64,000 nucleotides of DNA, from assembly GCF_000372525.1 (NCBI RefSeq), contig NZ_AQUR01000106.1:1-64000 (forward strand). Reading direction: 5' to 3'. A program made the translations under genes and the position numbers. A model generated the notes under the pieces. It saw only the letters and a program-made list of their open reading frames with translations, was not told the origin of the DNA and did not search any database. Source of the stretch: Cupriavidus neocaledonicus (GTDB lineage: Bacteria; Pseudomonadota; Gammaproteobacteria; Burkholderiales; Burkholderiaceae). Positions 25,636-63,980 of this stretch are shown in pieces; positions within the stretch are counted from its first letter, which is position 1, and each line of letters starts with the position of its first letter.

Positions 25636-26610
25636 ATGAAAGCATTGATCAAAACTGCGTGTCGTGCGGCCATCGCGGCTTCGGCCCTGGCCTCAGGCAT
25701 CGCCATGGCAGCCTACCCGGACAAGCCTGTGCGCATTGTTGTGCCATATCCGCCGGGTGGCGCATCCGATACGACCGCGCGTGTGCTGAGCGAAAAACTG
25801 AAGGAGGTTACCGGTGCCACGTTTGTGGTCGAGAACCGGCCCGGCGCAAACGGAAATATCGCCGCCGAGATGGTGGCCAAATCGCCGGCAGATGGCTATA
25901 CGCTGCTGATGGCGAACGTCGGCCCGAATGCCATCAGCCAGTCGATCTACCCGCACCTCGGCTACGACGTCAACAAGAGTTTCGCCCCGATCGGGCAAAC
26001 CACCACGGTGCCGATCGTCCTGGTGGCCGGACCGAAGGTCAAGGCGGCGGACATCAAGGGGCTGGTGGCAGAAGTCAAGGCCAACCCGGGCAAGTACACC
26101 TTTGCCTCGGCTGGCAATGGCTCCTCCAATCACCTGGTGGGCGAGATGTTCAACGCCGGGCTGAAGACGGACATGATGCACGTGCCCTATAAGGGCGATG
26201 GCCCGGCTCTGACCGATGTGATGGCCGGGCAGGTGTCCATGATGTTCACTACGGCCGTCGCTGCACGTCCGTTCGTGAGCGGAGGCAAGCTCAGGCTCAT
26301 CGCAGTGGCAAGCAAGAAGCGAGTGCCTGCGTTTCCCAATGCACCGACGATCGATGAATCCGTGCTGAAGGGATTCGACGCCTCTTCCTGGGGCGGTCTC
26401 GTTGCACCTGCCGGAACTTCGCCAGAAATCATCAGGCAACTGAGTGGGGCACTGATGAAGGTGCTTGCCATGCCGGAAGTGAAGAGCCAGCTGGCGACGC
26501 TTGGTGCCGAAGTGGTGGCAACCGGGCCCGATGAGTTTGCACGCTATATCAAGAGCGAAGCCGACAAGTGGGGCGCTGTCGCGAAGTCGGCAAACGTGGT
26601 CGCTGAATAA
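25636..26610 (+). CDS. Bug/TctC-family periplasmic receptor
   Basis: A 324-residue Bug protein with a Sec signal peptide (residues 1-25, ending IAMAAYP) and mature motifs YPDKPVRIVVPYPPGGASD, ENRPGANGN, ADGYTLLMANVGPNAIS, ASAGNGSSNHLVGEMF and HVPYKGDGPALTD. It is the last gene of the operon, 23 bp after the dehydratase, and probably captures the sugar acid handled by the operon. It is most like the receptor at 37260-38243 (shared LMAN.GPNAI and YKGD.P motifs), so the two may recognise related ligands. Confidence 0.93.
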   Translation: MKALIKTACRAAIAASALASGIAMAAYPDKPVRIVVPYPPGGASDTTARVLSEKLKEVTGATFVVENRPGANGNIAAEMVAKSPADGYTLLMANVGPNAISQSIYPHLGYDVNKSFAPIGQTTTVPIVLVAGPKVKAADIKGLVAEVKANPGKYTFASAGNGSSNHLVGEMFNAGLKTDMMHVPYKGDGPALTDVMAGQVSMMFTTAVAARPFVSGGKLRLIAVASKKRVPAFPNAPTIDESVLKGFDASSWGGLVAPAGTSPEIIRQLSGALMKVLAMPEVKSQLATLGAEVVATGPDEFARYIKSEADKWGAVAKSANVVAE

Positions 26611-37259: not shown

Positions 37260-38243
37260 CTAGTCGAGCCGCACCTTCGAAGAGTCCGCAACCTTCTTCC
37301 ATTTGGCGAGTTCGGCGCGAAGGAAGGCGTCAAACGACTCCGGCGTGCCGCCCACGATCTCGGCGCCCTGGGCCAGCAGCTTCTCCCGGATGTCCTGATA
37401 TTGCAGCGCCTTGTTGAACTCAGCATTCATCTTGGTGATGATCGCCGCCGGGGTGCCGGTCGGTACCATGAAGCCGCCCCAGGAGACGGCCTCATAGCCG
37501 CTAATGCCCAGTGCTTCGTCTACCGTGGGAACATCCGGCAAGGACGGGAGGCGCTTCTTGCTGGTGACCGCAAGCGCGCGCAGCTTGCCGCTCTTGACCT
37601 GCGGCATGCCGGCCAGGGCCGTCGGCAGCGCGACGTGGATCTGCCCGCCCAGCACGTCGGTCAGCGAGGGTGCGTCGCCCTTGTAAGGGACATGCGCCAT
37701 CTTGACGCCCGCCATGGAATTGAGCAGCTCGCCCGCGAGGTGGTTGCTCGCCCCGTTGCCTGCCGAGCCGAAGGTGATTTCGCCAGGCTTATCCTTGGCC
37801 ATGGCGATCAGTTGCTTCAGATCCTTGATGGGGGAGTTCGCCGCCGTGACGATGACCAGCGGCACCGTGGTCGCCAGGATCACGGGCGCGAAATCCCTGA
37901 CCGAGTCATAAGGCAATTTCGAATAGACCGCGGGATTGATGGCATTCGGTCCAAGGTTGGCCATCAGCACCGTGTATCCGTCCGCGGCCGATTTTGCTAC
38001 CAGTTCGTTGGCGATGATGCCGTTGGCCCCCGGCCGGTTCTCGATAACGACTGATTCTCCCCAGGCCTGGCTGAGCTTTGCGCTCAGCAGCCTGGCGGTG
38101 ACATCCGAAGCGCCACCGGGCGGATAGGGCAGGACCACCCGGACCGGCTGGGCGGGCCAGTCCTTGGCCGCCGCGTGCGGTGAGGCGGAGATCGCTGCCA
38201 GGCAAAGCAGGGCGGCGGAAGCTTGTCGTAGATATCGATGCAT
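37260..38243 (-). CDS. Bug/TctC-family periplasmic receptor
   Basis: A 327-residue Bug protein with a Sec signal peptide (MHRYLRQASAALLCLAAISASPHAAA) and mature motifs WPAQPVRVVLPYPPGGASD, ENRPGANGI, ADGYTVLMANLGPNAIN, GSAGNGASNHLAGELLNSM and HVPYKGDAPSLTD. It is third in an operon after a FAD-linked oxidase and a CoA-transferase. The ligand is probably a hydroxy acid used by the oxidase. Confidence 0.93.
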   Translation of the reverse strand: MHRYLRQASAALLCLAAISASPHAAAKDWPAQPVRVVLPYPPGGASDVTARLLSAKLSQAWGESVVIENRPGANGIIANELVAKSAADGYTVLMANLGPNAINPAVYSKLPYDSVRDFAPVILATTVPLVIVTAANSPIKDLKQLIAMAKDKPGEITFGSAGNGASNHLAGELLNSMAGVKMAHVPYKGDAPSLTDVLGGQIHVALPTALAGMPQVKSGKLRALAVTSKKRLPSLPDVPTVDEALGISGYEAVSWGGFMVPTGTPAAIITKMNAEFNKALQYQDIREKLLAQGAEIVGGTPESFDAFLRAELAKWKKVADSSKVRLD

Positions 38244-38313
38244 GATGGGTCTCCTGTCTCCTGATGCGATCCTGCTTCGGGATCGCGCTTGTGCTACTTG
38301 TGCTACCTGCGCT

Positions 38314-39537
38314 TCAAATCGAGCCTTCCCGGCGCAATCCCGAAATCCGGTCCGCCGACCAGCCTAGCTCGCGGCTCAGGATGTCGTCCGTATGCTCGCC
38401 GAGCACCGGCGGCGCACGCCGGTACTCGACAGTGGAGCGGGAGAACTTGATCGGGTTGGCGATCTGCGGCGCGATCGCTCCGCTTCCATGGGGAAGCGAG
38501 AACACCATGCCGCGCGACCGCACTTGCGGATCCGACAAGGCCTGCGGAATCGTATGGATCGGTCCGCACGGCACGCCGGCGGCTTCCAGTCTGACCAGCC
38601 AGGCTGCCGTGTCGCGGCCACGGAATCGGTCCGCCAGCAAGAACACCAGGCTCTCGCGGTGCTTCAGGCGCGCGGCGTTGGTCGCGTAGCGCTCGTCGCG
38701 TGCCAGTTCGCCCAGCTCCAGTGCGTCGCACAGGGCGCCGAACTGCCGGTCGTTGCCGACGGCAACGATCAGCGCGCCATCACTGGTCGCGAACGACTGG
38801 TAGGGCGCGAGGTTCGGATGGGCGTTCCCCCAACGTCGTGGCTCGGAACCCGCTACCAGATAGTTGGAAGCCTGGTTCGCAAGCCACGCGACCTGCGTGT
38901 CGAGCAGGCTCATGTCGATGTACTGGCCGCGTGCGCTCCCGACCCGTTCGAACAAGGCGCTGACGATGGCCACCGATGCGTACATCCCTGTCATCAGGTC
39001 CGAGATCGGTACGCCGCATTTCTGCGGCCCGCCGCCGGGGCGGTCGTCGCACTCGCCGGTGATGCTCATGAGCCCGCCCATGGCCTGTACCACGAAGTCG
39101 TAGCCGGCCCGGTGGCTGTACGGCCCGGTCTGCCCGAAGCCGGTGATCGAGCAGTACACCAGGCGTGGATTGAGCGCCGCCAGCGTGTCGTAGTCCAGGC
39201 CATAGCGCCGCATGTCGCCGCACTTGTAGTTCTCGACGAAGACGTCGGCCGTCTTTGCCAGTTCGCGCAGCACGGTCTGTCCTGCCTCGCTGCTGACGTC
39301 CACGGTGATCGAGCGCTTGCCCCGATTGGCGCAGAGAAAATAGGCCGACTCGGCCGTCAGGGTGCCGTCTTCCCGGGCAAGGAAGGGCGGCCCCCAGGCG
39401 CGCGTGTCGTCCCCGCTGCCGGGTCGCTCCACCTTGATCACGTCGGCACCGAGGTCCGACAGCAACTGGGTGCTCCACGGTCCCGCAAGGATGCGGCTCA
39501 GGTCGAGCACCCGGATGCCTTCCAAAGGTCCTGCCAT
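38314..39537 (-). CDS. Class III CoA-transferase (CaiB/BaiF family)
   Basis: A 407-residue CoA-transferase: GIRVLDLSRILAGPWSTQLLSDLGADVIKVERPGSGD at the N-terminus, NRGKRSITVD, VENYKCGDMRRYGLDY, catalytic Asp180 in GVPISDLMTG, GQYIDMSLLD and the final LGEHTDDIL. Class III enzymes move CoA between two carboxylic acids through an aspartyl intermediate. It lies 28 bp after the FAD-linked oxidase and 70 bp before the Bug gene, and presumably activates the oxidised or imported acid. Confidence 0.93.
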   Translation of the reverse strand: MAGPLEGIRVLDLSRILAGPWSTQLLSDLGADVIKVERPGSGDDTRAWGPPFLAREDGTLTAESAYFLCANRGKRSITVDVSSEAGQTVLRELAKTADVFVENYKCGDMRRYGLDYDTLAALNPRLVYCSITGFGQTGPYSHRAGYDFVVQAMGGLMSITGECDDRPGGGPQKCGVPISDLMTGMYASVAIVSALFERVGSARGQYIDMSLLDTQVAWLANQASNYLVAGSEPRRWGNAHPNLAPYQSFATSDGALIVAVGNDRQFGALCDALELGELARDERYATNAARLKHRESLVFLLADRFRGRDTAAWLVRLEAAGVPCGPIHTIPQALSDPQVRSRGMVFSLPHGSGAIAPQIANPIKFSRSTVEYRRAPPVLGEHTDDILSRELGWSADRISGLRREGSI

Positions 39538-39565
39538 GGTTTTGCCTCCTGTGAATGCCCGGGCT

Positions 39566-41167
39566 TCAGCTCGGGTCGAACAGCACGCCGGGATTCAGGA
39601 TCTGCTTGGGGTCGAACGCTTGCTTGGCCGCCTTCAGCGCGGTGCAGAACAGCTCGGGCCGCTCCTTGTCATACCAGGGACGATGGTCCCGTCCGAGCGC
39701 GTGGTGGTGGGTGACGGTGCCGCCCGCGTCCACCATGGCCTGTTCCGCCACCCGCTTGATTGCCATGTACTGCTCGGGTATGCGGGCCTTGTCGCCGTAG
39801 GCAAACCAGGTGAAGTAGGGCGCGGGGCCGTCCGGATACAGGTGGGTGAAGCGGCACGTCACCGAGCCCGGGCGTCCCGTCACTTCGCGGATGATGCGAT
39901 GCGTCTCGTTCTTGACGTGCTGGTGAAGTGCGGCGAAGCGGTCCCAGGTGACGGCGGTTTCCATGGTTTCGCGCATGACCCCGCGTGCAATGGCGTACTC
40001 GCGCAGATAGGGTCCGCGCAGGAACTTGTTGCGCCAGCTAGCCGTGGCCGAATCGGCACCTTCCTCGTTGGTTGCCGCAGCGGTCTCCCAATCGCCGCCG
40101 CATGCCGCGCAGATCTCCAGCGCGCGCGCCATCCACGCATCGACCGGGTGATCCGCCGACTCGAAGCCCAGCACGAGGATGTCATAGGAGCCGTCGCTGG
40201 AGCCGGTGTAGGCTGCCTCCTCGCGCTCGACCAGGCGCGCGTTCGCGGGGTTCAGGCCAGACTGGGACAGCAGCCGTGTCGCCTCGACGGCCTTGGCATA
40301 GTCGCGGAAGCGCACCGTGGTCTGCTTGCGGTAGACCGGGCGGCGGTGCAGCTTGACCCAGGCCTCGGTAATGATGCCAAGCGCGCCCTCCGAGCCCAGA
40401 AACAGCCGGTCGGGATTGGGGCCCGAGCCCGATACCGGAAAGCGGCGCGACTCGATATTGCCCGCGGGGGTTACGACCTTCAGGCTTTCGATGTGGTCGT
40501 CGATCTGCGTGTATGCGGTGGCGAAATGCCCGGCAGCGCGGGTTGCGATCCAGCCCCCCAGCGACGAAAACTCCCATGCCTGCAGGAAAAAGCGCATGGT
40601 CAGCCCGGTCGGCTTGAGCTGGCGTTCCAGGCTCGGCCCGAGCACGCCGGCCTGGATGCGCGCGGCTTGCGAAGTCTGGTCGACTTCCAGCACCTTGTCG
40701 AAGTGTTTGAGGTCGAGCGTGAGGACGCCCCGGTAGCGATCGTGCTCCGGAGGGTTTACCCCGCCGACCACGCTGGAGCCGCCGCCGTAGGGAACGACGG
40801 CAAGCTGTTGGCGGCCGCACCAGTCGAAGAGATCGACGATGTCCTGTTCGGTCCTGGGATACGCGACCACGTCTGGCGGATTCGGGAACTCTTTCCGAAT
40901 GGCCCGCGCCACGTCCACCGTACCGGCGCCATAGGTGTGATAAAGGCGGTCGTAGTGGTCGGTCGTGCAGATCTCACGCAGCGTTGCAGGCGGCTGCACG
41001 CGCGGGGCGCGAAGTTCGATTTCGTCCGCGCTGGGGAAGGGCATGGCCTCGAAATGCTCGACCCCCAGCAACCGGCTCCACGCGGCCTCGAACTCCGAGA
41101 TTTCCTGCGGCGTGACGGTGTCTCCTTCGTAGCCCCAGCCATAAAACTTGCGACGGCGTTCCTGCAT
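39566..41167 (-). CDS. FAD-linked oxidase (alkyldihydroxyacetonephosphate synthase/glycolate oxidase-like)
   Basis: A 533-residue flavoenzyme. It has a PCMH-type FAD-binding domain (VVPYGGGSSVVGGVNPPEHDRYRGVLTLDLKHFDKVLEVD, AWEFSSLGGWIATRAAG, GSEGALGIITEAWVKLH) and a C-terminal cap domain with HHHALGRDHRPWY, which supplies active-site histidines. The opening RRRKFYGWGYEGD resembles alkyldihydroxyacetonephosphate synthases, but in this setting 2-hydroxyacid oxidation is more likely. The ATG at 41167 follows CAGGAGACATCGAC. It heads the operon and lies just below two LacI operators. Confidence 0.9.
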   Translation of the reverse strand: MQERRRKFYGWGYEGDTVTPQEISEFEAAWSRLLGVEHFEAMPFPSADEIELRAPRVQPPATLREICTTDHYDRLYHTYGAGTVDVARAIRKEFPNPPDVVAYPRTEQDIVDLFDWCGRQQLAVVPYGGGSSVVGGVNPPEHDRYRGVLTLDLKHFDKVLEVDQTSQAARIQAGVLGPSLERQLKPTGLTMRFFLQAWEFSSLGGWIATRAAGHFATAYTQIDDHIESLKVVTPAGNIESRRFPVSGSGPNPDRLFLGSEGALGIITEAWVKLHRRPVYRKQTTVRFRDYAKAVEATRLLSQSGLNPANARLVEREEAAYTGSSDGSYDILVLGFESADHPVDAWMARALEICAACGGDWETAAATNEEGADSATASWRNKFLRGPYLREYAIARGVMRETMETAVTWDRFAALHQHVKNETHRIIREVTGRPGSVTCRFTHLYPDGPAPYFTWFAYGDKARIPEQYMAIKRVAEQAMVDAGGTVTHHHALGRDHRPWYDKERPELFCTALKAAKQAFDPKQILNPGVLFDPS

Positions 41168-41195
41168 GTCGATGTCTCCTGTGTGGTTTTCGCGC

Positions 41196-41213
41196 AATGT
41201 AATCGATTACATT
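41196..41213. promoter_or_regulatory. LacI-type operator O1 (perfect palindrome)
   Basis: AATGTAATCGATTACATT is a perfect 18-bp palindrome with a central CG, the hallmark of LacI-family sites. It lies 28 bp upstream of the FAD-linked oxidase start. A second copy is 66 bp away. Confidence 0.8.
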
Positions 41214-45175: not shown

Positions 45176-46939
45176 CTATTTCGATCGCGACGCGTGCGGC
45201 CCGCGCTCCAGGATCTTGTACAGATGCGAGCGGGAAATCCCGAGCTGCCCGGCCGCGCGTTTCTTGTTGCCGCCGTGGCGCGCGACCGCATCCATTACCG
45301 CGGCATAGGCCAGTTCCCGCATGCCCGCGGCGGCCTCGGCCGGTAAGCGGTGTGCGGCCGTGGGTGATGGCAGGTCGTCCGTCGCGGCCGTCTCGCAGGG
45401 ACCCGCAGCTTCGGGCGCATGCACGGTGCTCTGGCTTTGCGGTCCCGATAGCCCGCGCGCCGACTCGCCGCGTGCAAAATCCGCCACGCGCAGCGAGCGG
45501 CCGTCGCAGAACACCAATGCCTCCTCGATGCGCTGGCGCAGCTGGCGCACATTGCCGGGCCATGGCTGGCCGGCGAGGTAACGCGCCACTTCGTGGTCGA
45601 TGCCCGGCGCCGGCATGGCGTTGCGCGTGCAGAAGGCTTCGACGAAATGCTGCAGCAGCGCCGGGATGTCCTCGCGCCGCTGGCGCAGCGCGGGAATGCG
45701 CAGCACCACGCCGCTCAGCCGGTAGTACAGGTCGAGGCGAAAACGCCCGGCGTCGATCAGCTCGGGAATGTCGCGGTTGGTGGCCGACACCAGCCGGAAG
45801 TCGACCCGCTGCGCGCGGCGGCTGCCAAGCCGTTCGACCATGTGGTCTTCGAGCACGCGCAACAGCTTGACCTGCATCTCCATGGGGATGTCGGCGACCT
45901 CGTCGAGGAAGACCGTGCCGCCCGCCGCCAGTTCGAGCTTGCCCGCCTGTCCCTGGCGCTGGCTCCCGGTGAAGGCGCCCGGCGCGTGCCCGAACAGCTC
46001 CGCCTCGATCAGCGTGGCGGGCAGGGCAGCGAGGTTCAGGCTGACCAGCGGCCGCGCGCTGGCCGGCTCGGTTCCGGCGCCGTGGATGGCGCGGGCCACC
46101 AGTTCCTTGCCGGTGCCGCTTTCGCCCAGGATCAGCACCGGCACGTCAAGGCGGGCCACGGTCTGGATTTCCCGGCGCAGGCGCTGCATCGGCGCGCTTT
46201 CGCCGATCAGCCCGAACGTCGGTTGCGGTGCGTGCAGGCCGTGGCGCAGGCCATCGACCTCGCGCTGGTAGCGCGCCACCTCGGAGCGCAATTCGACCAG
46301 TTCCTTGTGCATGCGGACCAGCGCTTCCGGCCCCTTGAACATGACCTGCCCGATGGCGCCCACCACCTCCCCGTCCTGGCGGATCGGCATGCGGTTGACC
46401 ACGCGGGTGGCACCGTCAAGCTGCTGCAACTGCCCGATCTCCGCCTTGCCGCTGGCCACCACCTGCGGCAGCCGCGAATTGGGGATGACCTCGGGCGCCG
46501 GACGGCCGATGCCGCCGCCGGTATCGAGGCCGAGGAATTTCTCATGGACGGGACTGATGAAACGCACCCGTCCCGCCTTGTCGACCACGGTGATGGCCTG
46601 GTACGGGTCGTTCAGGAAGTAGTCCAGGATCGCGCCGGCGAACGGCACCGTGCCGAGGAAGTCGAGCAGCACGGCCTGGGCGTCGACGCGATGCAGGACG
46701 ATCAGCCGGCGCTCGCCGTCTTCCAGGGACAAGCCAATGAATCGCCCGCCGGCTGCGTCGACGGGAAAGACCCTGCGTCCCGGTTCCGCTGCGCCTGCGC
46801 GGGCGCATGCGGCGAACGCCGCGTCGGCGATGGCGGCATCGGTACAGGCACCGAGCGCTGCCTCGCGGGTGCCGTCGCGAGCACAGACCAGCACGCCGAG
46901 CCCGAACCGGTCTGCATCTTGTGTCGTCATTGAGGGCAC
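45176..46939 (-). CDS. Sigma-54-dependent transcriptional activator (PAS, AAA+, Fis HTH)
   Basis: A 587-residue enhancer-binding protein. The N-terminal half has a PAS-like domain ([35 protein letters not shown]). The AAA+ domain has Walker A GESGTGKE near 270, the sigma-54 contact loop GAFTGS at 321-326 and Walker [12 protein letters not shown]. The C-terminus is a Fis-type HTH ([23 protein letters not shown]). The loop ends in Ser in place of the usual Ala, a mild variant. The GTG at 46939 is chosen because GGAG lies seven bases ahead; the ATG at 46930 has no site. It is divergent from the carboxylase operon, whose promoter looks sigma-54 dependent. Confidence 0.92.
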
Positions 46940-46969
46940 ATTGTGTCTCCGTGCGTGCCTCCTGTGTGG

Positions 46970-46980
46970 ACACGTCGTGT
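46970..46980. promoter_or_regulatory. Possible activator-binding palindrome
   Basis: ACACG-T-CGTGT is a 5-1-5 palindrome about 80 bp upstream of the sigma-54 promoter, a usual distance for an enhancer site of the neighbouring activator. It is short, so chance is possible. Confidence 0.3.
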
Positions 46981-47054
46981 AGTCATTGGGGACATCGTAC
47001 TGAGGGCGGAGAAATTATTCAATGTAATCAAGGCACCCGTTGCGATTAGCGGGC

Positions 47055-47069
47055 TGGCATGTCTCCTGC
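47055..47069 (+). promoter_or_regulatory. Sigma-54 (-24/-12) promoter
   Basis: TGGCATGTCTCCTGC matches the consensus TGGCACGNNNNTTGC with GG and GC at exact spacing and two mismatches. It is 46 bp upstream of the first carboxylase gene and next to a divergent sigma-54 activator gene. Confidence 0.8.
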
Positions 47070-47114
47070 GATAAGTTGGCAACACATGTACCAGGCAAAA
47101 AACAGGAGAAGGCA

Positions 47115-48665
47115 GTGAGCTGGCAGCCCGAAATCGATGAACTGGCCCACCGTCGACGGCTTGCCGCCCGCATGGGCGGTGAAGGCAAGGTGGAACGCCA
47201 CAAGGCGGCCGGCAAGCTGACGGTGCGCGAGCGTATCGATGCCCTGGCCGATCCCGGCTCGTTCCGCGAGGTCGGCGGCCTGACCGGCAGCGGCCGCTAC
47301 GACAGCAACGGGCGGCTGGTGGACCTGGTTCCCTCCAACCTGGTAATGGGACGCGCGCAGGTCGGCGGCCGGCCGGCGGTGCTTGTCGGGGATGATTTCA
47401 CCGTGCGCGGCGGTGCCAACGAGGGCGCGGTGGGCGACAAGCTGATCCACGCCGAAAAGATGGCGCATGACCTGCGGCTGCCGATGATCCGGCTGGTCGA
47501 CGGCACCGGCGGCGGCGGCTCGGTGCGCAATATCGAGATCAAGGGCCATACCCTGATCCCCACCATGAAGGTCTGGCAGCACGTGGTGGAGAACATGTCG
47601 GTGGTGCCGGTAGTGTCGCTGGCCCTGGGCTCGGTGGCGGGCATGGGCGCGGCGCGCGTGGCCGCCAGCCACTATTCGGTGATGGTCAGGGACACCTCGC
47701 AACTGTTCAGCGAGGGCCCGCCGTCGGTCGTGGCCCGGGTGGGCGAGGCGCTCAGCAAGAACGAACTGGGCGGCAGCCAGATCCACACCCGCAACGGCGT
47801 GGTCGACGATGAGGTCGGCACCGAGCAGGAGGCCTTCGTGCGCGCGCGCCGGTTCCTGTCCTATCTGCCGCCCTCCGTCTTTGCACTGCCGCCGCGCAGC
47901 GAGCCCGGGGACGACGCCGCGCGTCGCGACCCATGGCTGCTGTCGGCGATTCCGCGGGACAGCCGGGCGGACTACGAGATCCGGCCGATCATGCAGGCGC
48001 TGTTGGATGCCGATTCCTGTTTCGAGATCGGCAGGCACTGGGGCTGCGCCGTCGTCACCGCGCTGGCCCGCCTGGATGGCTGGCCGGTGGCGGTGATCGC
48101 CAGCGACCCGTCCTTTCATGGCGGCAGCTGGGACAGCGACAGCGCCGAGAAATTCACCCGCTTCGTCGACATGGCCCAGGCCTTCCATCTGCCGGTGGTC
48201 AACCTGGTCGATACGGCCGGCTTCCGGGTAGGCCTGGAGGCCGAACGGGCAGGGATCATGCGCTATGGCGTGCGCGCGCTGTCGGCGCTCTACCAGGCCA
48301 CGGTGCCGTGGTGCTCGGTGATCCTGCGCCGCGCCTATGGCGTGTCGGCGGCCGCACACCAGCACATGGGCCGCTTCAATTTCCGCTATGCCTGGCCCTC
48401 CGCCAACTGGGGCGCCTTGCCGCTCGAAGGCGGCCTCGATGTCGCCTACAAGGCCGAGATCGAAGGCGCCGACGATCCGGTGCAGAAGCGCGCCGAGATC
48501 GAGCTGCGCGTGCGCAGCCTGACCTCGCCGTTCCGCAGCGCGGAAGCCTTCGTCATCGAGGACATCATCGACCCGCGCGACACCCGCGCGCTGCTGTGCG
48601 AGTTCGCCAACCTGGCGGCGCCGCTGCGCGAGGCGGGGATCAGCCGCTTTGGCATACGGCCCTGA
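47115..48665 (+). CDS. Acyl-CoA carboxylase carboxyltransferase (beta) subunit
   Basis: A 516-residue carboxyltransferase of the propionyl/methylcrotonyl-CoA carboxylase beta family, with two crotonase-fold halves: RHKAAGKLTVRERIDALADPGSF, LVDGTGGGGSVRNIE, GSVAGMGAARVAASHYSVMVRDTSQLFSEGPP, and in the second half PVVNLVDTAGFRVGLEAERAGIMRYG and RRAYGVSAAAHQHMGRFNFRYAWPSANWGALPLEGG. The start is a GTG at 47115 with AGGAG at the right distance. It is the first gene of the sigma-54 operon. The next gene already contains its own carboxyltransferase domain, so this is an extra CT subunit. Confidence 0.9.
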   Translation: MSWQPEIDELAHRRRLAARMGGEGKVERHKAAGKLTVRERIDALADPGSFREVGGLTGSGRYDSNGRLVDLVPSNLVMGRAQVGGRPAVLVGDDFTVRGGANEGAVGDKLIHAEKMAHDLRLPMIRLVDGTGGGGSVRNIEIKGHTLIPTMKVWQHVVENMSVVPVVSLALGSVAGMGAARVAASHYSVMVRDTSQLFSEGPPSVVARVGEALSKNELGGSQIHTRNGVVDDEVGTEQEAFVRARRFLSYLPPSVFALPPRSEPGDDAARRDPWLLSAIPRDSRADYEIRPIMQALLDADSCFEIGRHWGCAVVTALARLDGWPVAVIASDPSFHGGSWDSDSAEKFTRFVDMAQAFHLPVVNLVDTAGFRVGLEAERAGIMRYGVRALSALYQATVPWCSVILRRAYGVSAAAHQHMGRFNFRYAWPSANWGALPLEGGLDVAYKAEIEGADDPVQKRAEIELRVRSLTSPFRSAEAFVIEDIIDPRDTRALLCEFANLAAPLREAGISRFGIRP

Positions 48666-48727
48666 GAGCGGCCAGGCCCGGCATCCCGGGCATGCCACGG
48701 ACATCGAATTACAGAGAGGAGACTGCG

Positions 48728-51700
48728 TTGAAGAAGCTGTTGATCGCCAATCGAGGGGAGATCGCGCTGCGCGTGCTGCGCGCCGCACGCGATCTCGAGA
48801 TCGGGACCGTGTCGGTCTATTCGCAGGACGACCAGGCCGCGCTGCACCGGATCCTGGCCGACGAGGCCGTCGCCCTCGACGGCGCCGGGCCAGCGGCGTA
48901 CCTCGACATGGCAGGCATCATCGCCGCGGCCAGGGCATGCGGCTGCGATGCGATCCACCCGGGCTATGGCTTCCTCAGCGAACGGGCCGACTTTGCCCGG
49001 GCCTGCCAGGATGCCGGCATCCGCTTTATCGGCCCCACCGTGGAGCAACTTGCACTATTCGGCGACAAGGGGCGAGCGCTTGAACTGGCGGCCGGCAGCG
49101 ACGTGCCGGTCATGCCGGCGACGCGCGGCGCGGCCTCGCTGCAAGACATCGCCAGTTTCTTCGACCAGCAAGGCGGCGCGGGCGTGGTGATCAAGGCGGT
49201 CGGCGGGGGCGGCGGCCGCGGCATGCGCGTGGTACGCCGGCGCGAGGACCTGGCCGAAGCCTATGCGCGCTGCCGTTCCGAGGCGGGCTCGGCCTTTGGC
49301 ATCGATGCCGTCTACGCCGAGCGCCTGGTTGCGCGCGCGCGCCATATCGAAGTGCAGATCGCCGGCGACGGCGCGCACGTGATTGCCCTGGGCGAACGCG
49401 ACTGCACCCTGCAGCGCCGCTTCCAGAAGCTGGTCGAGATCGCTCCCAGCCCGGTACTGAAACCGCAGCTGCGCGAGCAGATCATCAAGGCGGCGCTCCG
49501 GCTGGCGCGCCGCGTCAACTACCAGAGCCTGGGCACCTTCGAGTTCCTGGTCGAGGAAACCGAAGCGGGCGAGCAGAAGGACTTTGTCTTCATCGAAGCC
49601 AATCCGCGCTTGCAGGTCGAGCACACCATCACCGAGCAGGTCACCGGCGTCGACCTGGTCGCGCTGCAGATCGGCATCGCCGCGGGGCAGACGCTCGCCG
49701 ATCTCGGCCTGGATCCCGCTGCGCCGCCGCCGGTGCGCGGCTATGCCATCCAGGTGCGCATCAACGCCGAGATCACCGATGCGCAAGGCCTGGCGCGTCC
49801 CGCGCACGGCCGGCTGGAGCGCTTCGATGCGCCTTCGGGCCCGGACGTTCGCGTCGATTCCCATGGCTACACCGGCTATGAACCGTCGCCCAATTTCGAC
49901 ACCCTGCTGGCCAAGCTGATCGTCACCAGCGCAGCGCCGAAGTTCGACGCGGCGGTGCGGCGCCTGCAGCGCAGCCTGGCGGAGTTCCGCATCGCCGGCG
50001 TGCCGACCAACCTCAACCTGCTGCGCGCGCTGGTGCAGCGCGACGATTTCCTCGCGCAGGACGTCCACACCCGGCACTTCGAGGCGATCGTGCAGGAACT
50101 GACCGCGGCGGCGGAGGCGATGGCGCAGGCCGGACGCGCGCACGAAGCCTTGCTGGGCGGCGTGGCCCATCCTGCGCAGGCGCTCGCGCCGCGCCCCGCC
50201 GATGCGGAAGAGCAAATCGGCGAGGGCCTGGTCGCGGTCCGTGCGCCGCTGACGGGCAGGGTGGTGGAGATTGGCGTGGCGCTGGACGAAATCGTCAAGC
50301 CCGGCCAGACCGTCGCGGTGCTCGACGCCATGAAGATGGAGCATGCCATCGTCGCCGGATGCGGCGGCCGCGTGGTCGACCTGCGGCTGGAGCCGGGCGC
50401 GCTGGCTTCGGAAAACCAGGTGCTGATCGTGCTGGAGCAGATCGAGGCCGATGGCATCGCCGTGGCTGCCGCCCGGCAGGTCGATCCCGATGCGATTCGC
50501 GCCGACCTGCAGCGCGTGCTGGACCGCCATGCCTGCCTGGATGACGCCGCGCGTCCCGATGCCGTCGCCAGGCGCCGCGCGCGCGGGCAGCGCACCGCGC
50601 GCGAGAACGTCGCCGACCTGTGCGATCCGGATACCTTCGTCGAGTACGGTGCGCTGGCCCTCGCCGCGCAGGCTTCGCGCCGCAGCCAGCAGGACCTCAT
50701 TGCCAACACCCCGGCGGATGGCCTGATCACGGGCATCGGCAACATCAACGGCGAACTGGTCGGCACGGAACGAGCGCGCAGCGCGGTGATGGCCTACGAC
50801 GCCACGGTGATGGCTGGCACGCAGGGCAAGCGCAACCATATCAAGACCGACCGCATCGTCGAGGTGGCGCTGCGCGACGAGCTGCCCCTGGTGCTGTTCG
50901 GCGAAGGCGGTGGCGGCCGGCCCGGGGACGTGGATTTCCCTTCGGTGTCCGGGCTGTACCAGCCGTCGTTCGCCGCCTTTGCCGGGCTGAGCGGCAATGT
51001 GCCGGTGGTGGGCATCGTCTCGGGGCGCTGTTTCGCCGGCAACGCGGCCTTCGTCGGCTGCTGCGACGTCATCATTGCCGACAAGTCGGCCAATATCGGC
51101 ATGGCGGGACCGGCCATGATCGAAGGCGGCGGCCTCGGCACCTTCCGCCCGGAGGACGTCGGTCCCGCATCGGTCCAGGTTGCCAACGGCGTGGTCGATA
51201 TCCTGGTCGACAACGAGGCCCAGGCCGTGCAGGTGGCGAAGCACTACCTGTCCATGTTCCAGGGGCGCGTGGCGCACTGGAGCGCGCCGCAAGCGCTGGC
51301 GCTGCGCCATGTCGTGCCGGAGAACCGGCTGCGCGTGTACGACACCCGCAAGGCCATCGAGGGCATCGCCGACGTCGGCAGCGTGCTGATGCTGCGCGCC
51401 GGCTTCGGCGCGGGCATCCACACCGCGCTGGCCCGCGTGGAAGGCCAGCCCGTTGGCATCATGGCCAATAATCCCTATCACCTTGGCGGCGCCATCGATG
51501 CGGACGCCGCGGACAAGGCGTCGCGCTTCATGCAGCTGTGCGATGCGCACCGCCTGCCGATCATCTCGCTGATCGACACCCCGGGGTTCATGGTGGGTCC
51601 GGAATGCGAGGCCCGGGCGCAGGTGCGGCACGTGTCGCGCATGTTCCTGACGGCGGCCAAGCTGCGTGTCGCGCTACTGGCGGTGACGCTGCGCAAGGGC

Positions 51701-52045
51701 TATGGCCTGGGTGCGATGGCCATGGCGGGTGGTGGCTTCCGCTCGGCAAGCTTCACGGTGTCGTGGCCGACCGGCGAATTCGGGCCGATGGGCCTGGAGG
51801 GCGCGGTCAGGCTGGGCTTCAAGAAGGAGCTCGAAGCCGTGCCGGATGGCCCGGAGCGCAAGGCGCTGTTCGACAGGCTGGTCGCCCAGTCCTACGAGCG
51901 CGGCCACGCGATCAACACCGCGGCCGCAGTCGAGATCGATGCGGTGATCGACCCGGCGCAGACCCGCAAGTGGATCGCACAGGGCATCGCCTCGGCGGAC
52001 TTGCGCGGCCGCAGGGAGCGCCGCGGATTTGTCGACGCGTGGTAA
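48728..52045 (+). CDS. Single-chain acyl-CoA carboxylase (biotin carboxylase - BCCP - carboxyltransferase fusion)
   Basis: A 1105-residue fused carboxylase. Residues 1-450 are biotin carboxylase (LIANRGEIALRVLRAARDL, HPGYGFLSERADFA, ATP loop GGGGGRGM, EANPRLQVEHTITEQVTG). Residues about 500-580 are the biotinyl domain with Lys536 in LDAMKMEHAIV. Residues about 590-1105 are a beta-type carboxyltransferase (RARGQRTARENVADLCDPDTFVEYG, GGRPGDVDFPSVSG, SLIDTPGFMVGPECEARAQVRHVSRMF). This domain order and size match the long-chain acyl-CoA carboxylase type known from Mycobacterium avium and Rhodopseudomonas. The start is a TTG at 48728 after GAGGAGACTGCG. Its acyl-CoA substrate is unknown. Confidence 0.9.
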   Translation: MKKLLIANRGEIALRVLRAARDLEIGTVSVYSQDDQAALHRILADEAVALDGAGPAAYLDMAGIIAAARACGCDAIHPGYGFLSERADFARACQDAGIRFIGPTVEQLALFGDKGRALELAAGSDVPVMPATRGAASLQDIASFFDQQGGAGVVIKAVGGGGGRGMRVVRRREDLAEAYARCRSEAGSAFGIDAVYAERLVARARHIEVQIAGDGAHVIALGERDCTLQRRFQKLVEIAPSPVLKPQLREQIIKAALRLARRVNYQSLGTFEFLVEETEAGEQKDFVFIEANPRLQVEHTITEQVTGVDLVALQIGIAAGQTLADLGLDPAAPPPVRGYAIQVRINAEITDAQGLARPAHGRLERFDAPSGPDVRVDSHGYTGYEPSPNFDTLLAKLIVTSAAPKFDAAVRRLQRSLAEFRIAGVPTNLNLLRALVQRDDFLAQDVHTRHFEAIVQELTAAAEAMAQAGRAHEALLGGVAHPAQALAPRPADAEEQIGEGLVAVRAPLTGRVVEIGVALDEIVKPGQTVAVLDAMKMEHAIVAGCGGRVVDLRLEPGALASENQVLIVLEQIEADGIAVAAARQVDPDAIRADLQRVLDRHACLDDAARPDAVARRRARGQRTARENVADLCDPDTFVEYGALALAAQASRRSQQDLIANTPADGLITGIGNINGELVGTERARSAVMAYDATVMAGTQGKRNHIKTDRIVEVALRDELPLVLFGEGGGGRPGDVDFPSVSGLYQPSFAAFAGLSGNVPVVGIVSGRCFAGNAAFVGCCDVIIADKSANIGMAGPAMIEGGGLGTFRPEDVGPASVQVANGVVDILVDNEAQAVQVAKHYLSMFQGRVAHWSAPQALALRHVVPENRLRVYDTRKAIEGIADVGSVLMLRAGFGAGIHTALARVEGQPVGIMANNPYHLGGAIDADAADKASRFMQLCDAHRLPIISLIDTPGFMVGPECEARAQVRHVSRMFLTAAKLRVALLAVTLRKGYGLGAMAMAGGGFRSASFTVSWPTGEFGPMGLEGAVRLGFKKELEAVPDGPERKALFDRLVAQSYERGHAINTAAAVEIDAVIDPAQTRKWIAQGIASADLRGRRERRGFVDAW

Positions 52046-52088
52046 GCGCCGTGCCTGACAAACCCCCACATAGAGCCAAGAGGTTGCC

Positions 52089-54560
52089 ATGATCAAGCAT
52101 GGGTTTGACCCGGCGCAGCTGGCGCTGGGCGGCGTGCGCGTGCTCGAGGTCGGCAGCGGCCCGGCGCTGGCGTACGCGGGCAAGCTGTTTGCCGACTTCG
52201 GCGCAGAAGTCATCAAGGTCGAGAGCCCCGCGGGCGACGCTTGGCGGCGGATGCCGCCGCTGGTGAGCGCACCGGATGCCGGGCAGCCGGAAAGCGCGCT
52301 GTTTGCGTGGCTGAATACCAACAAGCGAAGCGTTAGCGCCGACGACCGGAACGTAGAGGATGGCGCCTGGCTGGCACAGCTGGCGCTGACGTGCGACGTG
52401 GTGCTGGATGCCCGTGCGCTGGCTGAAGGCCCGGGCATTCCCGGCACGCCGGTCTGGCGGCGGGCGGCCGATGACACGCCACCGCACGAGCCGATCGAGG
52501 TGGCACTCACGTGGTTCGGCGAGAGCGGGCCGTACAGCCATTACGCCGGCGCCGAAGCCGTGTGCCGCGCGCTTGCCGGCGCCGTGCACGGCAGCGGTCC
52601 CGCGGCGGGGCCGCCGCACATGCCGCACGACGTGCAGTCGGCGATCGTGGTGGGGCTGAGTGCGTTCTCAGCCGCCGTCGCGGCGCTGATCGGCAGCGGC
52701 CAGGGCAGCCGCCGCTATGTGCTGAGCGCCCACGAAGCGATCTTCGGCGTGGTCGAGATGGAAGCGGGCATGGTGCAGGACAGGCGCCATCCGCTGAAGC
52801 GCCTTGGCGTCAACCGGTTCTGCGGCACGCATCCGGCCGGGATCTACCAGACGGCCGAAGGGTGGATCGGCATCTTTACGCACACCCTGCCGCAGTGGAA
52901 GGGCCTGTGCGAGGCCATCGGGCGTCCGGATCTTGGCGGCGATCCGCGCTACGCCAGCGGCCCGGAACGGATGGAACGCGCCGACGAGATCGACGCGCTG
53001 CTGCTGCCTGCCTTCCTGACGCGCACGGCGCGGCAGTGGTTCGAGATCCTTGGCGACAAGAAGCATCCGGCCGTGATCGTGCCGACCATGGAGACCCTGC
53101 TTGGCCAGGCAGTGCACCGGCAGCGCGGCGCCTTCGTGCCGGTCGGCGTGGGCGGCGCCTGGTTCGAAGGCCCGGTGGTGCCGCTGCGCCTCGATGCGGC
53201 GGGCCCGCTGCCCGGGGGCGATGCGCCGGCAAAGGGTGCGCATGACCTGCACTACCGCACCGCGGGGCTGGATCATCAGCCGCGCCAGACGCTGAGGCGA
53301 ACGGCCGGCGAGCGCTTGCCGCTGGCCGGCATTCGCGTCGTCGACCTGACCATGGGCTGGGCGGGGCCGCTGGCGGCGCGCACGCTGGCCGACTTTGGCG
53401 CGGAGATCATCAAGGTCGAAAGCACCGGTTATCCCGACTGGTGGCGTGGCGCCAATTTCACCGAGGCGTTCTATCGGGACAGGCTGTACGAGAAGAACAC
53501 GAACTTCAACCTGATGAACCGCAACAAGCTCGGCATTACGCTGGACCTGACACGGCCCGAAGGCAAGCAGTTGCTGCTGCGGCTGGTCGAAGGTGCCGAC
53601 GCGGTCATCGAGAATTATTCCGCCGAGGTCCTGCCCAAGCTCGGGCTGGACTACGAAGCGCTGCGCGCCAGGAACGAACGGCTGGTGATGCTGTCGATGC
53701 CGGCCTTCGGGCTTGGCAACGCGTGGAGCAATACCCGCGCGTACGGCGGCACGCTCGAGCAGGCCAGCGGGCTGCCGCTATATACGGGGCACCCGGATGG
53801 TCCGCCGGCCATGACGTCATACGCCTATGGCGATCCCATCGGTGGCCTGAACGGCGGCGCGGCGATCCTGCTGGCGCTGTTGGCGCAGCAGGCGACGGGG
53901 CAGGGGCGGCACATCAATCTGTCGCAGGTAGAGGCGATGCTGCCGATGGCGGCACCGTTCATGCTGGAGCAATCCGTCACCGGCGCCGTCTCGCCGCGGC
54001 AGGGCAATCGCCATCCGATGCACTCGCCGCATGGGTGCTTCCGTTGCGCAGGCGACGATGCGTGGATCGTGCTGACGGTGACCGATGCGGACTGGCCCGC
54101 GCTGTGCCGGGCCATCGGCCGGGCGGACCTCGCGGCCGATCCCGGCCTGGCGCGGGCCCCGGGACGGCGCGGCCAGGAGGGCAGGATCGAGCAGGCGATC
54201 AAGTCCTGGTGCGTGCGCCGCGACGCCGAAGCGGCAATGCAGCAGCTGCAACAGGCCGGCATCGCCGCCGGCGTGGTGCGGCCGATGTCGCAGGTGCTGC
54301 AGGACCCCCATCTGTGCGCGCGCGGGTTCTGGCGCCAGGTCGAGCGCGCCCACGTCGGCACCTACACAGCCAGCACCGCATGGTTCAGGACCGGGCCGGA
54401 CCCCGTGCCGATCCGCCATGTCGCGCCGACGCTGGGCGAACACACCGAAGCGGTGCTGCGCCGCGTGCTTGGGCTCAGCGCGGACCAGATCGCAAGCCTG
54501 GCACAACAGGGCATCACCGGCACGGTCGCGAAGCCAAAGCAGGCAAGGCCAATGCCGTGA
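52089..54560 (+). CDS. Tandem class III CoA-transferase (two fused CaiB/BaiF domains)
   Basis: An 823-residue protein made of two CaiB/BaiF units. The first opens LEVGSGPALAYAGKLFADFGAEVIKVESPAGD, with candidate catalytic Asp181 (MPHDVQSA). The second starts near 410 with VVDLTMGWAGPLAARTLADFGAEIIKVES and has Asp582 in YAYGDPIGG, followed by RHINLSQVEA and LGEHTEAVL. The tandem layout and length resemble DddD, the DMSP CoA-transferase/lyase, but shared architecture does not prove shared chemistry. It lies 43 bp after the fused carboxylase and probably activates the imported acid with CoA. Confidence 0.88.
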   Translation: MIKHGFDPAQLALGGVRVLEVGSGPALAYAGKLFADFGAEVIKVESPAGDAWRRMPPLVSAPDAGQPESALFAWLNTNKRSVSADDRNVEDGAWLAQLALTCDVVLDARALAEGPGIPGTPVWRRAADDTPPHEPIEVALTWFGESGPYSHYAGAEAVCRALAGAVHGSGPAAGPPHMPHDVQSAIVVGLSAFSAAVAALIGSGQGSRRYVLSAHEAIFGVVEMEAGMVQDRRHPLKRLGVNRFCGTHPAGIYQTAEGWIGIFTHTLPQWKGLCEAIGRPDLGGDPRYASGPERMERADEIDALLLPAFLTRTARQWFEILGDKKHPAVIVPTMETLLGQAVHRQRGAFVPVGVGGAWFEGPVVPLRLDAAGPLPGGDAPAKGAHDLHYRTAGLDHQPRQTLRRTAGERLPLAGIRVVDLTMGWAGPLAARTLADFGAEIIKVESTGYPDWWRGANFTEAFYRDRLYEKNTNFNLMNRNKLGITLDLTRPEGKQLLLRLVEGADAVIENYSAEVLPKLGLDYEALRARNERLVMLSMPAFGLGNAWSNTRAYGGTLEQASGLPLYTGHPDGPPAMTSYAYGDPIGGLNGGAAILLALLAQQATGQGRHINLSQVEAMLPMAAPFMLEQSVTGAVSPRQGNRHPMHSPHGCFRCAGDDAWIVLTVTDADWPALCRAIGRADLAADPGLARAPGRRGQEGRIEQAIKSWCVRRDAEAAMQQLQQAGIAAGVVRPMSQVLQDPHLCARGFWRQVERAHVGTYTASTAWFRTGPDPVPIRHVAPTLGEHTEAVLRRVLGLSADQIASLAQQGITGTVAKPKQARPMP

Positions 54561-54606
54561 GCCCTGCAAGTATTCAGAAAGACCATTATTACGACACGGA
54601 GACGAC

Positions 54607-55635
54607 ATGAACAAGCCGACATGGATCCAGCGCTGCCAGGCAGGCGTAAAGGCCGGCAAACGCGGCATGGCCGCAGCCGCGCTCGGCATCGTGGCCACGA
54701 CGATGGCCGCGCCGGCCGCGGGCCAGAATACCGGCTGGCCCAACAAGCCGATCCGGATGATTGTTCCCTTTCCGGCGGGATCGTTCACGGATACCGTGGC
54801 CCGGGTACTTTCCGAGCGCCTGGCCAGGTCCCTCGGCCAGCCTGTAGTGGTCGAAAACAAGGCGGGCGCGAACGGGCTGATCGGCGTGGGCGAGGCCGCC
54901 AGGGCCGCGCCCGACGGCTATACGCTGCTGGTCACCAACTCCAGCAGCATTACCATCAACCCGCAGATCTACAAGAAGGGCACCTATTCGCCAAAGGACT
55001 TCACGCCGGTCACCCTGGTCCTGGAGGCACCTTTCATCCTTGTCGCCAACCCTGACTGGTCGCAGAAAAACGCGGTCGGCTCGGTGCCGGAACTGGTGCG
55101 CTACGCGGCGCAGCACCCCGGCAAGGTCAGCTATGGCTCGGCCGGCCCGGGAAATATCGCGCATCTCAGCTTTGCCATGCTGAACAACCGGGCCAGGATC
55201 AAGACCACGCACATTCCGTACAAGTCCGCGGCCCAGGCCCAACTGGCCGTGATCAGCGGTGAGCTGGATACCGCCTTCGACACCTGGACGGCGCTGCCGC
55301 AGATCAAGGCGGGCAAGCTCAGGCCCCTCGCCGTTACCGCATCGAAGCGCATGGCGCAGTTGCCGGAAGTGCCCACGCTGGAGGAGCTTGGCATCTCGCC
55401 CTTCGACGTGACTTTCTGGATCGGCATGCTGGTACCGGCCGGCACGCCGCCGCAGATCGTCCAGAAGCTCCATTCGGTCGCGCAAGGGCTTGTCGAGGAC
55501 AGCAAGGCCAAGACAGCGCTGGGCCAGCAAGGCGATGTCGTGATGATCGATCCGGCCAATTTCGCGAAGCGCGTGGCAAGAGAGGAGGGCAACTGGACGG
55601 CGGTGATCCAGCGCGAAGCCATCACGCTCGATTGA
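54607..55635 (+). CDS. Bug/TctC-family periplasmic receptor
   Basis: A 342-residue Bug protein with a longer signal region (residues 1-40; basic start NKPTWIQRCQAGVKAGKRG then MAAAALGIVATTMAAPAAGQ) and mature motifs WPNKPIRMIVPFPAGSFTD, ENKAGANGL, PDGYTLLVTNSSSITIN, GSAGPGNIAHLSFAMLNNRARI and HIPYKSAAQAQ. It is the last gene of the sigma-54 carboxylase operon. The usual PPGG loop is PAGSFTD and the YKG motif is YKSAAQ, so its binding pocket differs from the other Bug proteins here. Confidence 0.92.
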   Translation: MNKPTWIQRCQAGVKAGKRGMAAAALGIVATTMAAPAAGQNTGWPNKPIRMIVPFPAGSFTDTVARVLSERLARSLGQPVVVENKAGANGLIGVGEAARAAPDGYTLLVTNSSSITINPQIYKKGTYSPKDFTPVTLVLEAPFILVANPDWSQKNAVGSVPELVRYAAQHPGKVSYGSAGPGNIAHLSFAMLNNRARIKTTHIPYKSAAQAQLAVISGELDTAFDTWTALPQIKAGKLRPLAVTASKRMAQLPEVPTLEELGISPFDVTFWIGMLVPAGTPPQIVQKLHSVAQGLVEDSKAKTALGQQGDVVMIDPANFAKRVAREEGNWTAVIQREAITLD

Positions 55636-63020: not shown

Positions 63021-63980
63021 ATGTTGACCCGACTGATCGCCACCGCCGCGCTGGTTTGCGCGAGCGCATCCGGCCATGCCGAACCATGGCCAGCCAAGCC
63101 CGTCCGTATCGTCGTGCCGTACTCGGCCGGCGGTACCACCGACTTTGTTGCGCGGCAGATTGCGCAAAAGCTGACCGAAAGCACCGGCAAGTCCTTCTTC
63201 GTCGAGAACAAGCCCGGGGCCAGCGGTACGATCGGCACGATGCAGGTTGCCCGGGCCGCTCCGGACGGGTACACCCTGCTGGCCAACGACACGACATACA
63301 CGATGCTGCCGTCGCTGTTCAAGGCGCTGCCCTGGGACCATGAGCATGACCTCGAGCCGGTCACTACCATCGCGCAAACGCCGGTAACCCTGATCGTTCC
63401 GGCCGGGTCGCCGTTCAGGACCCTGCAGCAGCTGATCGGCTTCGCCAGGCAGCATCCCGGCAAGCTCAATTTCGGCTCGGGCGGAGCGGGCAGCTCCACG
63501 CATTTGTCCGCCGAAGTGTTCGAGCAGCGTGCAGGCGCCAGCCTGACCCATATCCCTTACAAGGGGGCGGGGGAAGCGCTGATGGGCCTGATTTCCGGGA
63601 ACGTCGACCTGCTGATTACAGCGACCCCGACCGCAATTCCGCAGGTCAAGGGTGGCAAGGCGCGCGCACTCGCCGTGACCGGCGCCAGCCGTGTGCCGGG
63701 CTTGCCCGACGTGCCGACCTTTGCGGAAGCCGGACTGCCGGACTACAAGGTGACAAACTGGTTTGGCCTGGCCGCGCCGAAGGGGACCCCGCCGGAGTTG
63801 ATCAGGACGCTGCAAGGCGCCGTGCAGAAAAGCGTGCAGGGCGCCGACTTCAGGGAGCGGCTGGCCGGCATGGGCGCGAAGCCTGGCGGGATGCCGCCGG
63901 CGGATTTTGCAAAGCTGATCAGGCAGGATACGGTTACCTGGACCCAGGTGGCGAAGGCCGCCAACGTCAAGCCGGAATGA
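63021..63980 (+). CDS. Bug/TctC-family periplasmic receptor
   Basis: A 319-residue Bug protein: short Sec signal (MLTRLIATAALVCASASGHA), then WPAKPVRIVVPYSAGGTTD, ENKPGASGT, PDGYTLLANDTTYTMLP, GSGGAGSSTHLSAEVFEQR and HIPYKGAGEALMG. The ATG follows AAGGAGACAGCCTC. It is the last gene of the IclR-linked cluster in this window and the second Bug receptor there; the 152-bp gap with a hairpin suggests partly separate expression. Confidence 0.93.
   Translation: MLTRLIATAALVCASASGHAEPWPAKPVRIVVPYSAGGTTDFVARQIAQKLTESTGKSFFVENKPGASGTIGTMQVARAAPDGYTLLANDTTYTMLPSLFKALPWDHEHDLEPVTTIAQTPVTLIVPAGSPFRTLQQLIGFARQHPGKLNFGSGGAGSSTHLSAEVFEQRAGASLTHIPYKGAGEALMGLISGNVDLLITATPTAIPQVKGGKARALAVTGASRVPGLPDVPTFAEAGLPDYKVTNWFGLAAPKGTPPELIRTLQGAVQKSVQGADFRERLAGMGAKPGGMPPADFAKLIRQDTVTWTQVAKAANVKPE

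Follow-up and report, generated by a model that had tools for sequence, protein, structure and literature searches.

We analysed a 64,000-nucleotide stretch of DNA from Cupriavidus neocaledonicus (contig NZ_AQUR01000106.1, positions 1 to 64,000; hereafter the window) and concentrated on a predicted operon in it that encodes a free-standing carboxyltransferase (CT), a single-chain biotin-dependent carboxylase (FUS), a tandem CoA-transferase (COAT) and a periplasmic acid-binding receptor (Bug). By sequence, every protein of the operon can be assigned to a described family. The combination is best read as a hybrid of two carboxylase systems, in which the divergent activator gene and CT derive from a multi-subunit enzyme (Form B below), and FUS, COAT and Bug from a single-chain one (Form C). 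The operon is probably an acid-induced, sigma-54-controlled entry unit of a pathway, in which CT may be fed by the carboxybiotin of FUS.

The features, in window coordinates, are:
45176..46939, minus strand: activator of the sigma-54 family, AAA+ plus Fis-type helix-turn-helix (Pfam PF00158, PF25601, PF02954)
46922..46994, no strand assigned: candidate upstream activator sites, palindrome TGTCNNCNNNGNNGACA, at 46922-46938, 46956-46972 and 46978-46994 (matches to TGTCYNCNNTGNGGACA with 1-2 mismatches)
47055..47070, plus strand: putative -24/-12 promoter TGGCATGtctcCTGCG (conservation across orthologous regions)
47115..48665, plus strand: CT, PccB/MmdA-like carboxyltransferase subunit, 516 residues, GTG start (PF01039, 2.7e-86)
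48728..52045, plus strand: FUS, single-chain carboxylase of the LCC type, with biotin carboxylase (BC), biotin carboxyl carrier protein (BCCP) and CT parts in that order, 1105 residues (Pfam domains; match to PDB 4rcn)
52089..54560, plus strand: COAT, tandem class III CoA-transferase, 823 residues (PF02515, 3e-168; two CoA_transf_3 stretches)
54607..55635, plus strand: Bug/TctC periplasmic acid-binding receptor (PF03401, 1e-64)

The four genes lie on one strand with gaps of 62, 43 and 46 nucleotides and the activator gene is divergent from them, as the sequence-only reading had described. That reading also knew of no described pathway with this combination, and we found no description of the CT-FUS-COAT-Bug set in the open-licence literature, most subscription papers being outside the scope of the search. 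The source genome (G000, 6.77 Mb) has Cupriavidus as its closest named relatives.

The operon and its two relatives

A scan of genome contigs with FUS gave 344 relatives, and the loci of the best 80 were analysed. All five genes were found together in 18 of these 80 (with a partial activator match in L077). We also searched CT in 60 genomes of the genus, counting as a copy a match of at least 80% identity. Such a copy was present in 43 of them, in the order CT-FUS-COAT in 32 (Form A) and in a different operon in 11 (Form B); the remaining 17 genomes had neither. The sequence-only reading had staked its case on this gene order being conserved in relatives, and it is. The whole set was seen in the fetched regions of 13 Form A genomes (the activator or Bug is partial at region ends in L120 and L130, and CT and the activator are in pieces in G077), and CT-FUS-COAT in short loci of 19 more. 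Ten of these 19, including the window and G016 (L128), also show the activator and Bug, so that all five genes were seen in 23 of the 32; in the other nine the two outer genes lie beyond the fetched DNA, except for the activator of G008.

Form B has the order activator, CT, Bug, acyl-CoA synthetase, BC, BCCP and usually a hotdog thioesterase. Its CT is 80-84% identical to that of the window in the genus. The synthetase is of a 703-residue type, presumably NDP-forming by a below-cut-off match to acetate-CoA ligase alpha (one checked). BC is present in 10 of 11 loci (the contig of L124 ends before it), the BCCP is a chain of roughly 70 residues with ESMKM (read in seven), and the hotdog gene is in line in nine of 11 (L124 ends early, and in L123 it is on another contig). 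The activator and Form B, recognised there by genes other than BCCP, are found in three genomes outside the genus as well (G192, G295 and G325), two of which have the hotdog gene. In a third arrangement (Form C), FUS-COAT-Bug stands without an adjoining CT. It was found in 15 of the 80 loci, in Pseudorhodoferax, Noviherbaspirillum aerium, Advenella, Achromobacter, Bordetella, Jezberella and others. The activator is present at 49-55% identity in four of the 15, and two more have a relative of 32-33%. An activator relative points away from CT in both Form A and Form B, and four Form C loci have it divergent from hotdog-FUS.

None of the 60 genus genomes has two CT copies of at least 80% identity. 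Because 32 genomes have Form A and 11 have Form B, none has two such CTs, and Form C has no CT beside FUS, we take the extra CT to be the CT subunit of Form B. The sequence-only reading had regarded it as an addition to an already complete enzyme; instead, it appears to belong to a carboxylase with separate BC, BCCP and CT subunits, which stands elsewhere behind the same activator.

More distant relatives were surveyed at the level of the order, where CT was found in 29 of 399 genomes (E≤1e-150) and a tandem COAT in eight of 399 (E≤1e-100), and 20 of these places were fetched. In G040 the tandem COAT adjoins CT without FUS, and no other query gene is adjacent to the distant CT relatives in L146, L147, L151, L153, L155, L160, L161 and L164. 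CT and FUS are found together once more in an organism distant from Cupriavidus, an uncultured actinobacterium (L101:6372-11825), where a FUS of 52% identity and a CT relative of 51% converge tail to tail; this CT relative forms a very long branch in the CT tree. Three other Cupriavidus loci (L125, L126 and L127) contain a CT relative of 43-45% identity in the neighbourhood of a BC, another CT and Bug genes; L125 and L127 also have a single CoA-transferase.

Sigma-54 control

The activator matches Sigma54_activat and HTH_8 of Pfam, and its N-terminal region has no Pfam match. It had been read as a PAS-AAA-Fis protein; the AAA and Fis parts stand, while no Pfam PAS domain was detected at E≤1e-3 and the loop reads GAFTGS, not GAFTGA. 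Residues 103-485 match the NCBIfam PrdR model below its cut-off (317.5 vs 795 bits).

The promoter has three mismatches to TGGCACGN4TTGCW. At up to two mismatches this consensus occurs eight times in the window against a chance mean of 14.95, and the site at 47055 is not among them. Because the window alone gives no excess over chance, the -24/-12 promoter named by the sequence-only reading is not significant there, and it becomes credible through conservation. We compared 49 regions between the activator and the first gene, eight of which were near-copies from the same strain, leaving 41 distinct regions. A strict TGGCAYGN4BTGC is present in 34 of the 41 against 0.04 expected from mononucleotide shuffles, and palindrome TGTCNNCNNNGNNGACA with at most one mismatch occurs at 74 sites in 36 of the 41 against 0.4 expected. 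Regions had been viewed before either pattern was written (25 of them in the case of the palindrome), and the counts are not independent events because most regions come from one genus. Matches to TGTCYNCNNTGNGGACA with 1-2 mismatches number seven in the whole window against a chance mean of 2.54, and the copy at 46922-46938 overlaps the 5' end of the activator frame. Wherever it was found, the box precedes CT by 30-68 bp in Forms A and B, and in four Form C loci it precedes the hotdog gene; in Pseudorhodoferax the box is closely followed by the hotdog gene and then FUS. Among the Form B regions outside the genus, those of G192 and G325 (L156 and L158) have the palindrome and that of G295 (L157) does not. 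The activator and both signals are thus common to Forms A and B, and the box is also present in Pseudorhodoferax. On this conservation, CT-FUS-COAT-Bug is a predicted sigma-54-type unit.

The four proteins

The Pfam domains of FUS are Biotin_carb_N, CPSase_L_D2, Biotin_carb_C, Biotin_lipoyl and Carboxyl_trans, which mark it as a probable member of the known LCC family. Carboxylases of this type are homohexamers with a broad to long acyl chain range. The best start is TTG 48728 behind AGAGGAG, in agreement with the predicted frames of many relatives (1104-1106 residues); a longer open frame begins at 47933. The LCC structure 4rcn aligns to residues 25-1107 in the numbering of the frame from 48662, and PDB 5fif and 5h80 ('Carboxylase' proteins) match the CT and BC parts. 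The biotin site (A/S)MK is present in 126 of 126 aligned sequences (DAMKMEH in the window), and the BC motifs are kept in the same alignment, including EANPRLQVEHT in the window protein. For a Pseudomonas-like LCC, PMC6491548 gives a range of C2-C16 acyl-CoA and a Km for palmitoyl-CoA 350-fold below that for acetyl-CoA.

CT is covered over its whole length by Carboxyl_trans (residues 28-500 of 515). Its best PDB match is PccB 8pn8; 1x0u also matches over its length, and transcarboxylase 12S is among the matches. It is 27% identical to the CT domain of FUS and appears to form a subfamily of its own among PccB-type CTs. The segments AGMG and YGVS occupy the positions of AGGD and FGGA in 8pn8, which we take to be the oxyanion-hole segments, and similar letters are found across the subfamily; their main-chain NH groups may still serve as an oxyanion hole.

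In COAT, Asp582 of the C-terminal half is invariant across the 61 aligned sequences and aligns with an Asp of benzylsuccinate CoA-transferase, YfdW and the other PDB chains shown; we presume it to be the catalytic Asp. Asp181 of the N-terminal half is kept in 50 of 61, being Glu or Pro in three Pseudorhodoferax sequences and a gap in eight Acidimicrobiales-type rows. The best PDB match is benzylsuccinate CoA-transferase subunit 9fn0_B. Tandem class III domains are also known from the DddD-type CoA-transferases of about 840 residues, and the COAT neighbours inspected showed no dimethylsulfoniopropionate (DMSP) context. A tandem COAT is present in 43 of the 80 FUS loci, in ten of which, of an Acidimicrobiales type, it is only 26-27% identical and convergent with FUS. 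An AMP-forming ligase cluster adjoins FUS in 13 of the 80, and rough gene calling may hide more; of two members checked, one scored above the NF004822 cut-off (951 vs 782 bits) and one below (546). Eight Acidimicrobiales-type loci (L079, L081, L089, L091, L092, L093, L094 and L106) share a conserved cluster of FUS, the divergent tandem CoA-transferase, two PuuE-like hydrolases and an NtaA/DmoA-type FMN monooxygenase (annotated from one member per protein cluster: c13, c16, c17).

A Bug relative stands at the same place in Form A and Form C loci among the 80 examined. A nearby Bug gene is by itself weak evidence, because the window holds four other TctC/Bug genes (1438-2439, 25636-26607, 37263-38243 and 63021-63977). 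The third of these belongs to a second cluster (37263-41197, minus strand) with a single class III CoA-transferase (38317-39537) and an FAD-linked oxidase (39569-41197). None of the four operon genes is tctA or tctB, which encode the membrane subunits that accompany TctC in tripartite tricarboxylate (TTT) transport and for which the rest of the genome was not searched. The Bug proteins of Form B are 35-40% identical to that of the window in the genus, 65% in G192 (L156) and 37-38% in L157 and L158.

History of the operon

The hotdog gene is present in all 60 genus genomes (E≤1e-40), and in the window genome it stands alone, at 87% identity, on contig C80. Its flanks there match those of Form B on both sides in eight of 11 loci and on one side in L124 and L141, where contigs end; L123 showed no flank match. 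Because these flanks bracket Form B in relatives, Form B has either left this site, by loss or relocation, or entered the corresponding site in those relatives. Since the hotdog gene follows BC also outside the genus (L156 and L158), we prefer loss of Form B, with CT and the activator joining FUS-COAT-Bug, as a tentative direction of change between the Forms. The Form B hotdog protein shares 53-57% identity with its counterparts in L048 and L110, two loci of Form C.

In the CT tree (50 of 70 rows, near-copies dropped) Form A forms one group against Form B with support of 100/97, and the tree does not resolve its base, where Form A, genus Form B and outside Form B meet. The FUS tree (FastTree, 68 of 126 rows) nests Form A in Form C and places this clade among the FUS proteins linked to a ligase, which points to a single replacement of the ligase by COAT among these sequences. 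Because the activator tree joined long branches, we made no use of the order in which it places Forms B and C.

Proposed mechanism and its alternatives

In the reading that we prefer, Bug would bind an extracellular carboxylic acid, and the acid or a derivative would activate the regulator. COAT would move CoA onto the acid, probably from succinyl-CoA or a similar donor, and biotin-dependent carboxylation of the acyl-CoA would then add CO2 at the cost of one ATP. CT would be supplied with its carboxyl group by the BC-BCCP half of FUS, so that a single source of carboxybiotin serves two acyl-CoA sites. Bug families bind acids, CoA-transferases move CoA and biotin carboxylases use ATP, and the three reactions are assigned here from these families. 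CoA activation also fits because sister FUS genes adjoin an AMP-forming ligase and Form B pairs CT with an acyl-CoA synthetase; the logic of capture, activation and carboxylation put forward by the sequence-only reading thus finds support in the protein families and the activating neighbours. Transfer from FUS to CT is the most likely source of the carboxyl group because the Form A operon has no separate BC and BCCP. A more specific version, in which a multi-subunit operon joined an LCC operon under the same activator and lost its BC and BCCP, leaving one BC-BCCP to feed two CT sites with different acyl-CoA ranges, is tentative, though a serious possibility.

The neighbours of relatives include a hydratase/3-hydroxyacyl-CoA dehydrogenase and a thiolase near CT (L159), an oligopeptide-type ABC transporter (L152) and, near FUS in Acidimicrobiales-type loci, enoyl-CoA hydratase, PuuE-like hydrolases (below cut-off) and FMN monooxygenase. 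It is suggestive that carboxylation could prepare the acyl-CoA for beta-oxidation-like steps. An attempt to name the acid from neighbours was rejected, as these genes point to no single one.

Several observations weigh against the proposed mechanism. CT and the CT domain of FUS are only 27% identical, and a PCC-type (propionyl-CoA carboxylase) CT need not accept an LCC-type BCCP. The Form B ligand may differ from that of the window Bug because the genus Form B Bugs are so dissimilar to it; this counts against one common acid, for which the G192 Bug would count. Five of the 41 regions lack an upstream site at up to one mismatch and seven lack the strict box. A whole-genome search for the upstream site gave 78+81 matches against 21+27 in the backward control, and because this pattern is too unspecific we name no regulon. 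The Form C loci do without an adjoining CT, and G031 (L144), one of the 17 genus genomes without a CT copy, has kept FUS-COAT-Bug and misses CT and the activator, although its FUS falls inside the Form A group. Because a resolvase-like frame, judged by eye, lies about 4 kb upstream of FUS there, a mobile element may have removed the two genes.

Another explanation is that CT works with a BC and BCCP encoded elsewhere, such as the housekeeping AccC/AccB, and is merely co-regulated with a separate FUS. The window genome has ten BC-like matches to FUS, the operon's own included, and the CT relatives in L145, L162 and L163 show no BC in the fetched region. However, BC and BCCP lie downstream of CT in Form B and BC adjoins CT in L159, which suggests that this lineage often has a co-encoded partner, and the only one in Form A is the BC-BCCP of FUS; we regard the explanation as unlikely, if the strongest of the four weighed here. 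CT as a passenger or backup, kept by its tie to the promoter and activator while FUS alone carboxylates as in Form C, is somewhat less likely again. The loci without an adjoining CT, G031 among them, favour it (CT elsewhere in those genomes was not searched), but both the separate CT and the CT domain of FUS are under purifying selection. Between the window and seven relatives, omega (the ratio of non-synonymous to synonymous substitution rates) was 0.08-0.16 for CT, about that of FUS BC (0.10-0.13), with 0.06-0.10 for FUS CT, 0.13-0.26 for the COAT halves and 0.16-0.23 for the activator. In addition, the CT frame is free of stops in 31 of 32 Form A genomes; the exception, G077, has a split CT and also a fragmented activator.

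It is improbable that the system is a decarboxylase or transcarboxylase, in which COAT would activate a malonate-type acid and its carboxyl group would move via the biotin of FUS to a second acyl-CoA on CT. Two CTs with one BCCP would suit such a transfer, 12S is among the PDB matches of CT, and its best NCBIfam model is MmdA, but that score is far below the cut-off (289 vs 999 bits), PccB proteins outscore 12S and no Na+ pump subunit is among the four genes. Because the BC motifs of FUS are intact, ATP-driven carboxylation is expected. That catabolic genes came to lie side by side by chance, with no common function, can be given hardly any weight. Bug and CoA-transferase genes are indeed abundant, with the other TctC genes and one more CoA-transferase among ten further window proteins; against this stand the recurrence of CT-FUS-COAT across the genus, FUS-COAT-Bug in several other genera and the common regulatory sites.

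Comparison with known systems

Through the comparison, what looked like an odd set of genes becomes a case of enzyme-part swapping that can be tested. Depending on the bacterium, related activators precede either type of carboxylase, multi-subunit or single-chain, or an operon that combines the two. The CoA-activating neighbour varies as well, being a CoA-transferase with FUS, an acyl-CoA synthetase in Form B and an AMP-forming ligase beside sister FUS. If FUS does serve CT, a single-chain enzyme and a free-standing CT would have a carboxybiotin arm in common.

FUS resembles LCC (4rcn) in its BC-BCCP-CT order and biotin site, whereas its locus also encodes a Bug receptor, a tandem CoA-transferase and the free-standing second CT. 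Benzylsuccinate CoA-transferase (9fn0_B) and the formyl-CoA transferases align nearly end to end with the C-terminal half of COAT, which differs from them in holding two halves per chain, the N-terminal one with a variable Asp. Where PccB 8pn8 has AGGDVY and FGGA, the CT subfamily has AG(M/L/K)GAAR and mostly YGV(A/S). The PccB-type chains of multi-subunit propionyl/acetyl-CoA carboxylases match CT over its length, and Form B, like these enzymes, has a separate BC and BCCP; the Form A operon differs from them in having neither.

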